The notes under the pieces were generated by a model that had not been told where the DNA came from, ran no database searches, and was given only the letters and a program-made list of their open reading frames with translations. Shown in pieces: positions 45,641 to 46,310 of a DNA stretch of 64,000 nucleotides (positions are counted from its first letter, which is position 1; the number at the start of each line of letters is the position of its first letter). This DNA is from Hyaloscypha bicolor E (Eukaryota > Ascomycota > Leotiomycetes > Helotiales > Hyaloscyphaceae). The position numbers and the translations under genes are program-made. Where the stretch lies: positions 1,419,974 through 1,483,973 of the forward strand of contig NW_020194638.1 in assembly GCF_002865645.1 (NCBI RefSeq), in the 5' to 3' direction.

Positions 45641-46074
45641 GAAATAAGGAGAAATAGTGAAGCTGGTAGGAGAGCAAAAAGCGATGTTGCAAAAATGGCC
45701 ACTGAGCCTTTTGGTCGATACGGTCACCCATACTTGGGAACTGTATCCTACCTACGGTCCTGGCTCTGGCAGTGGGAGGCTCCGCAGCGCAGCTGCAGCC
45801 TCTGCCCCCTGCAAAATAAACACGAATAAGACATGTGGTCCCCCACATAGGCTCGAGCTGCCAGCCTCGAGATGGCCTGCAGCGTATGATTGAATGCTCT
45901 ATTGACGGAAAGGAAGTGTCGTCGAGATCAGAGAGTGATGTGCGAGGGAGATGGGGACCATACATGCCCAATTTTGGGTCGGAGCTCAGGAGCTCTAAAG
46001 TTCCGATTTTCTGGACGAGATTTGTTGAGGGCTTCATGTACTAATATAAGCGAGTTTGCAGCATCCAAAACAAA

Positions 46075-46263
46075 TCCCCGGTGGCGCAATTGGCTAGCGC
46101 GGTAAGCATTCACGAGTACCTGCTCATCAGCACGTTCTAATTCATAATAGTTCGACTGTTAAACAGCAGATCATCGAGAGGTTGGTGGTTCAAGCCCACC
46201 CCGTAAGCACTCCTTCAATACTACAAATTGTGAAATATGTACTAATATCACTTTCAGGGGGAG
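46075..46263 (+). tRNA. tRNA-Asn (GTT) interrupted by two GT-AG introns plus an 11-nt canonical intron
   Basis: Joining 46075-46101, 46151-46202 and 46258-46263 and removing 46162-46172 gives a full cloverleaf. Acceptor TCCCCGG pairs perfectly with CCGGGGA (7 bp); G73 follows. D stem GCGC/GCGC with loop AATTGGCTA; anticodon stem TTCGA/TCGAG; anticodon GTT at 46158-46160. Variable loop AGGTT; T stem GGTGG/CCACC with loop TTCAAGC. A box (TGGCGCAATTGG) and B box (GGTTCAAGCCC) are good Pol III promoter elements. The extra introns are 46102-46150 (GTAAGC, CTAAT branch, TAG) and 46203-46257 (GTAAGC, TACTAAT branch, CAG). They look like ordinary spliceosomal introns of this genome, placed between positions 26/27 and 67/68. 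The 11-nt intron sits at the standard 37/38 site. G73 and anticodon agree with asparagine identity. Confidence 0.85.
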
Positions 46264-46290: not shown

Positions 46291-46310
46291 TTTTTTTGCA
46301 TTGATTTTTT
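46291..46310 (+). terminator. T-runs after the tRNA, possible Pol III terminator
   Basis: T7 at 46291-46297 and T6 at 46305-46310 lie 28-47 bp after the last base of the tRNA. Runs of this length normally end Pol III transcription, though the distance is somewhat longer than usual. Confidence 0.5.

Follow-up and report, generated by a model that had tools for sequence, protein, structure and literature searches.

A tRNA-Asn gene split by two spliceosomal-type introns, and similarly split tRNA genes, in the Hyaloscypha bicolor genome

A tRNA-Asn(GTT) gene of Hyaloscypha bicolor E, at positions 46075–46263 of the window (the whole 64-kb stretch of DNA that was analysed), is split by two GT-AG introns, and its cloverleaf is restored when these are removed together with an 11-nt intron at 37/38. 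It is the sole tRNA-Asn gene found in the genome at BLAST sensitivity, and 16 other tRNA genes are split likewise, with introns at other positions of the tRNA. On the usual view, spliceosomal introns are a property of Pol II transcripts, U6 and some rRNA genes being the exceptions, and introns of nuclear tRNAs are substrates of the tRNA endonuclease. The genes described here very probably yield Pol III pre-tRNAs that would be spliced by the spliceosome and then, where a 37/38 intron is present, by the tRNA endonuclease.

The split tRNA-Asn gene

The locus is organised as follows, in window coordinates.
46045–46052, plus strand: upstream promoter-like element, TATAAGCG, at −30
46075–46101, plus strand: exon 1 (27 nt), tRNA positions 1–26, A box uninterrupted; pairs with exons 2 and 3 once spliced
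46102–46150, plus strand: spliceosomal-type intron 1 at 26/27 (49 nt), GTAAGC...AATAG
46137–46141, plus strand: branch motif of intron 1, CTAAT, with the putative branch A at 46140
46151–46161, plus strand: exon 2, positions 27–37 (11 nt), anticodon GTT
46162–46172, plus strand: insert at 37/38, the ordinary tRNA-endonuclease position; an 11-nt intron according to ARAGORN on the spliced sequence
46173–46202, plus strand: exon 2, positions 38–67 (30 nt), B box uninterrupted
46203–46257, plus strand: spliceosomal-type intron 2 at 67/68, inside the acceptor stem (55 nt), GTAAGC...TTTCAG
46240–46246, plus strand: branch motif of intron 2, TACTAAT, with the putative branch A at 46245
46258–46263, plus strand: exon 3, GGGGAG, positions 68–73 (6 nt), completing the 7-bp acceptor stem
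46291–46297, plus strand: T7 run, likely the Pol III terminator of the gene (T≥5 run at +28)

An earlier note on this DNA had claimed that a tRNA-Asn(GTT) forms solely without the two GT-AG segments and the 37/38 intron, and the observation is confirmed. Taking out the 49-, 55- and 11-nt segments leaves a mature tRNA of 74 nt in which 21 of 21 stem pairs form (7 acceptor, 4 D, 5 anticodon and 5 T). ARAGORN reported zero tRNAs in the 64-kb window and zero in the raw stretch 46075–46263; it returned nothing when the first GT-AG segment alone was removed, a spurious tRNA-Ser(cga) with a 43-nt intron when the second alone was removed, and tRNA-Asn(gtt) when both were. An intron-aware finder gave a single solution at the locus, with 21/21 stem pairs; the proposed junctions 46101/46151 and 46202/46258 proved exact, the sites at 26/27 and, within the acceptor stem, at 67/68 were recovered, and the boundaries given for the 37/38 insert are those of this solution. 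The Rfam search of the window produced no match at the gathering threshold; a covariance model (R2) built from 17 tRNAs of the same genome, with Asn left out, matched 46079–46203 at 25.5 bits (E 4e-6), its sole match in the 64 kb of the window at E values up to 10. The part of the window from 43.59 to 48.07 kb contains no stop-to-stop ORF of at least 150 aa.

The finder removes one or two segments bearing splice motifs and demands at least 20 of 21 stem pairs. Its first run accepted segments of 40–120 nt with a GTNNG donor, an [ACT]AG acceptor and a branch motif within 45 nt of the 3′ end, and in this wider form each of four decoy pairs gave 0 intron-bearing matches. Under limits chosen once the genes were known (45–60 nt, branch within 25 nt), the real splice motifs gave 13 matches among 254 T-loop sites in 120 loci, corresponding to 12 distinct genes (the Ala locus is present twice in the set), and each of the 23 non-identity letter-permuted motif sets gave 0.

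Split tRNA genes across the genome

The genome searched comprises 82.04 Mb in 76 contigs, and the gene models were drawn from tRNA matches, T-loop sites and A-box sites. Among the protein matches listed, those nearest that carry a species name belong to Helotiales or kindred fungi (FAS beta of Acephala macrosclerotiorum at 92%, anoctamin of Cadophora gregata at 77%), with other matches reaching 99%. Seventeen split tRNA genes were modelled, carrying 27 introns of 48–57 nt, distributed per gene as follows.
Asn-GTT 2, Arg-TCT 1, Glu-CTC 1, Ala-AGC 1, His-GTG 1, Arg-ACG 1
Arg-CCG 2, Gln-TTG 2, Lys-CTT 1, Ile-AAT 1, Met-CAT 2, Trp-CCA 2
Thr-AGT 1, Arg-TCG 2, Gln-CTG 2, second Ile-AAT 2, Thr-TGT 3

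All 17 mature forms pair at 20 or more of the 21 stem positions and are named by ARAGORN, which called only three of the raw genes, each with wrong ends or anticodon. A 37/38 insert of 10–32 nt is also present in eight of the 17, Asn included. Twelve genes are reached by the finder; the other five (Arg-CCG, Arg-TCG, Thr-AGT, Gln-CTG and Thr-TGT) were modelled by eye, and odd features occur in four of these, namely a GAG acceptor, a GC donor and a GTAAAT donor (one each), one intron lacking the strict branch motif and one 3-nt exon. The last of these belongs to Arg-TCG (L016, minus strand), where two introns, one with the GC donor, flank the exon TGG; nested removal of the stwintron kind would presumably spare the splicing of so short an exon. 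On the 3′ side of Thr-TGT, L122 appears to be a degenerate second copy of its last intron and exon, likely a partial duplication.

Six resolved genes carry no GT-AG intron (Lys L004, Gly L006, Gly L007, Val L009, Phe L018 and Ala L002), and the split share is thus 17 of 23 resolved genes, or 17 of 26 counting L044, L025 and the second L031, in a non-random sample that consists of what the tools showed and is no census. Nor is the genome-wide Rfam search for tRNAs a census, as 63 of 3058 candidates were scored and many of the 39 matches are AT-rich repeats. Compared with reversed controls, B-box patterns showed weak enrichment at best (418 vs 500; 138 vs 119; 57 vs 124).

Left out of the counts were L044, L025/L034, L005, L017, L031 (two), L098, L117, L085 (two), L099, L120, L043, L111 and the AT-rich repeats. 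In L005, L017, both L031 copies, L098, L117, both L085 copies and L099, good acceptor and T arms are combined with a long odd stretch that replaces the anticodon arm; CAGG[TC]GTGTCTCGG is common to L017 and the first L031 copy, and one L031 copy forms 19/21 pairs with an 89-nt insert. Possibly, these odd-arm loci belong to a distinct family of Pol III RNAs, or they are tRNAs whose 37/38 introns are long. L044 has a tRNA body with a 71-nt insert in the anticodon arm, and L025/L034 (C1:324305–324374) is a contiguous, bacterial-looking tRNA on a fungal contig. The AT-rich tRNA-like repeats (L010–L015, L019–L021, L023, L026–L030) display C-to-T style variation, and several lie no more than a few kb from the end of a contig; they are perhaps a subtelomeric tRNA-derived repeat.

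BLAST of the 82-Mb genome found no intact copy of the spliced Asn, Trp or elongator Met sequence; each of these three sequences, out of the 17 genes, matches its own split locus only, in a search whose first-look filters could overlook a diverged intact copy. Ile-AAT is represented by two split copies (L115 and L121) specifying the same 74-nt tRNA. Both are interrupted at 6/7, an intron at 28/29 occurs in L121 alone and a 10-nt 37/38 insert in L115 alone. Their 6/7 introns score 0.59 against each other, which falls inside the range of other tRNA-intron pairs (median 0.49, best 0.64), though BLAST of the 6/7 stretch including exon ends gives 78% over 86 nt. Furthermore, Lys(CTT) L114 carries an intron after base 8, a site at which L004, a related but different Lys(CTT) isodecoder, is continuous.

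These observations bear on the possibility that the loci are pseudogenes or tRNA-derived repeats with chance insertions, the real tRNA-Asn being made elsewhere. Repeats of a tRNA-like kind do exist near contig ends, and, according to Yoshihisa 2014, when a eukaryote has many synonymous tRNA genes an insertion in one of them is usually taken as a sign of a pseudogene. However, the pairing of the exon stems in all 17 genes, the lack of any second Asn, Trp or Met copy in the BLAST searches, the differing introns in two Ile genes with identical exons and the low similarity among introns, where the best pair (0.64) does not exceed shuffled pairs (up to 0.65), make this explanation exceedingly improbable. 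The same lack of similarity above shuffles led to the rejection of introner elements as a source; the 261-nt query around the Asn locus had one genome match.

Intron signals and Pol III features

Twenty-six of the 27 introns are GT-AG and one is GC-AG. The donors (GTAAGT 9, GTAAGC 5, GTGAGT 3, GTATGT 3 and seven singletons, GCAAGT and GTAAAT among them) all fit GTNNG except for the single GTAAAT and GCAAGT, the acceptors are CAG (13), TAG (9), AAG (4) and GAG (1), and a strict branch motif is present in 26 of 27, the A of the last such motif lying 9–13 nt from the 3′ end; this consensus is partly due to selection, since the finder demanded GTNNG at the donor, AG at the acceptor and a branch motif. 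Length, branch distance and TTTT content were free of selection in the first finder runs, and the narrow spread of length and branch distance is a finding because the ranges allowed there were wide. Frame-restoring coding-intron candidates in the window number 63, of which 14 passed a similar motif filter; these coding-like introns, some of which may be false, are 43–82 nt long with the branch A 6–22 nt from the end. The tRNA-Asn introns resemble them in donor, branch, acceptor and length, as had been suggested from the sequence. In motifs, length and branch distance, the tRNA introns appear to be of the U2-type spliceosomal class.

Multiple tRNA introns at ectopic sites are known from Cyanidioschyzon merolae and from nucleomorphs (PMC9602550, PMC3978253 and PMC4090602), where the tRNA endonuclease would cut bulge-helix-bulge (BHB) motifs at unusual positions; applied to H. 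bicolor, this explanation would render the GT-AG boundaries coincidental. The likeness lies in tRNA genes of C. merolae and cryptophyte nucleomorphs that are cut at several unusual positions, sometimes by three introns. Those introns are of the BHB type or of unknown removal, and measure 3–24 nt in Guillardia, whereas the introns described here are 48–57-nt GT-AG segments with a branch motif. A strict BHB motif was found, in up to five registers, in none of the 22 introns of the split genes other than the second Ile gene and Thr-TGT, an absence that is weak alone since 160 of 5000 random segments contain the strict form. BHB-type introns were rejected on this absence, and an endonuclease origin would, moreover, leave the splice donor and the branch motif at fixed distance without explanation; we regard it as very unlikely.

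The split genes also look like Pol III transcription units. TTTT, a Pol III stop, occurs in 0 of the 27 introns, in contrast to 4.1 expected in dinucleotide shuffles (P(0)=0.005); the AAAA control occurs in 8 vs 11.3 expected. TTTT is present in four of the 14 coding-like introns of the window, and in Gln-TTG it lies within the exonic anticodon loop. All 17 split genes are followed at +13 to +73 by a run of T≥5, the background being 6.6% per 80 nt of window. The arrangement, with a putative Pol III terminator 3′ of the genes and none in the introns, is that predicted for functional tRNA genes. In 14 of the 17 split genes, [AT]A[AT]AAG starts 22–49 nt upstream of exon 1 (60 nt searched; background 4.4% of window positions); one of the three genes without it, Thr-TGT, has just 18 nt of flank. 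The element also lies within 70 nt of four of the six unsplit tRNA genes, and a AATAAGCG-like element is common to split and unsplit genes at about −22 to −65, that at 46045–46052 being an example. Its position supports the start chosen for genes whose exon 1 is 6 or 7 nt long.

Introns fall within the A-box region in His, Trp, Arg-ACG, Lys, Gln-CTG and Arg-TCG (after base 12 in His and Trp, after base 16 in Arg-ACG). Such introns would be expected to impede TFIIIC if nothing upstream made up for them, and our guess is that the upstream elements may bear more of the promoter function here.

The interrupted A-box regions, from their positions, might weaken the internal Pol III promoter, and the normal substrates of the spliceosome are Pol II transcripts; both points would suit a model in which the loci lie in longer Pol II non-coding RNAs and are spliced in the ordinary capped, co-transcriptional manner. 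The T runs after every split gene, the absence of TTTT from the introns and the sharing of the upstream element with four of six unsplit tRNA genes speak against it, and we consider it very unlikely. A general intron invasion of Pol III genes was likewise rejected on full-length genes, in a survey that could miss split copies: four above-threshold matches to U6 (105–112 nt; 47 of 4920 candidates scored) and 16 to 5S (117–121 nt; 47 of 2901 candidates scored) are all full-length and uninterrupted.

Proposed processing and relation to known introns

Taken together, the mRNA-like motifs, the recurrence in 16 further genes, the absence of strict BHB motifs, the paralogues with and without an intron and the Pol III features support the spliceosomal reading of the split tRNA-Asn put forward in the earlier note. 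The tRNA-Asn gene would give one Pol III precursor, from which the spliceosome would take out the GT-AG introns at 26/27 and 67/68 via lariats. As the acceptor stem is split at 67/68, the cloverleaf would be able to fold only after this removal; RNase P and RNase Z would then trim the ends of the spliced pre-tRNA, and the tRNA endonuclease and ligase would remove the 11-nt 37/38 intron, so that both splicing pathways would act on one RNA. The tRNA endonuclease reads the mature tRNA body. The anatomy is read directly from the DNA, and the proposed steps and their order are modelled on established pathways.

Tani and Ohshima reportedly described mRNA-type introns in U6 snRNA genes, in fission yeast and in further fungi. 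Fission-yeast U6 introns, which also figure in PMC10484740, resemble the present case in that a short non-coding RNA made by Pol III carries spliceosomal introns. However, U6 is a single RNA and itself a spliceosome component, in contrast to the many tRNA genes affected here, and the four above-threshold U6 matches of H. bicolor are uninterrupted, unlike fission-yeast U6. Ectopic spliceosomal introns in the nuclear rDNA of ascomycetes, lichen fungi among them, similarly reside in structural RNA genes of this group and are removed from non-Pol II transcripts (PMC8527467); the rDNA transcript is, however, made by Pol I from many copies, whereas the tRNA genes are low-copy and some also carry a 37/38 intron. 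Canonical eukaryotic 37/38 introns have their counterparts in the 11-nt Asn insert and the inserts of seven other split genes, in contrast to the GT-AG introns, which lie elsewhere in the tRNA and bear mRNA-type signals. A literature search over titles and abstracts, outside of which lay bioRxiv and most subscription journals, gave no spliceosomal introns in nuclear tRNA genes among the matches listed, and passages of PMC11782384, PMC6461891, PMC13130702 and PMC12352066 contributed nothing to the point.

More than two dozen spliceosomal-type introns are present in tRNA genes, and some of them interrupt the acceptor stem or the A-box region. They raise the questions of how the spliceosome would gain access to Pol III precursors that lack a cap, how it would recognise internal exons as short as 3, 6 or 7 nt, how TFIIIC would cope and by which route introns entered these genes. 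With at least 17 genes built in this manner, much of the tRNA supply would depend on the spliceosome. We propose that in this helotialean lineage the spliceosome is probably an obligatory component of tRNA biogenesis, the genes for the essential tRNAs Asn, Trp and elongator Met existing only with spliceosomal introns and tRNA genes carrying up to three of them, often beside a TSEN intron. tRNAscan-SE counts are low in Hyaloscypha hepaticicola (51) and Gamarada debralockiae (50) (PMC11678538), and one may guess that overlooked split genes account for this. If the proposal holds, tRNA prediction programs would undercount such genomes, and the decoding capacity of these fungi would be tied to their splicing capacity.
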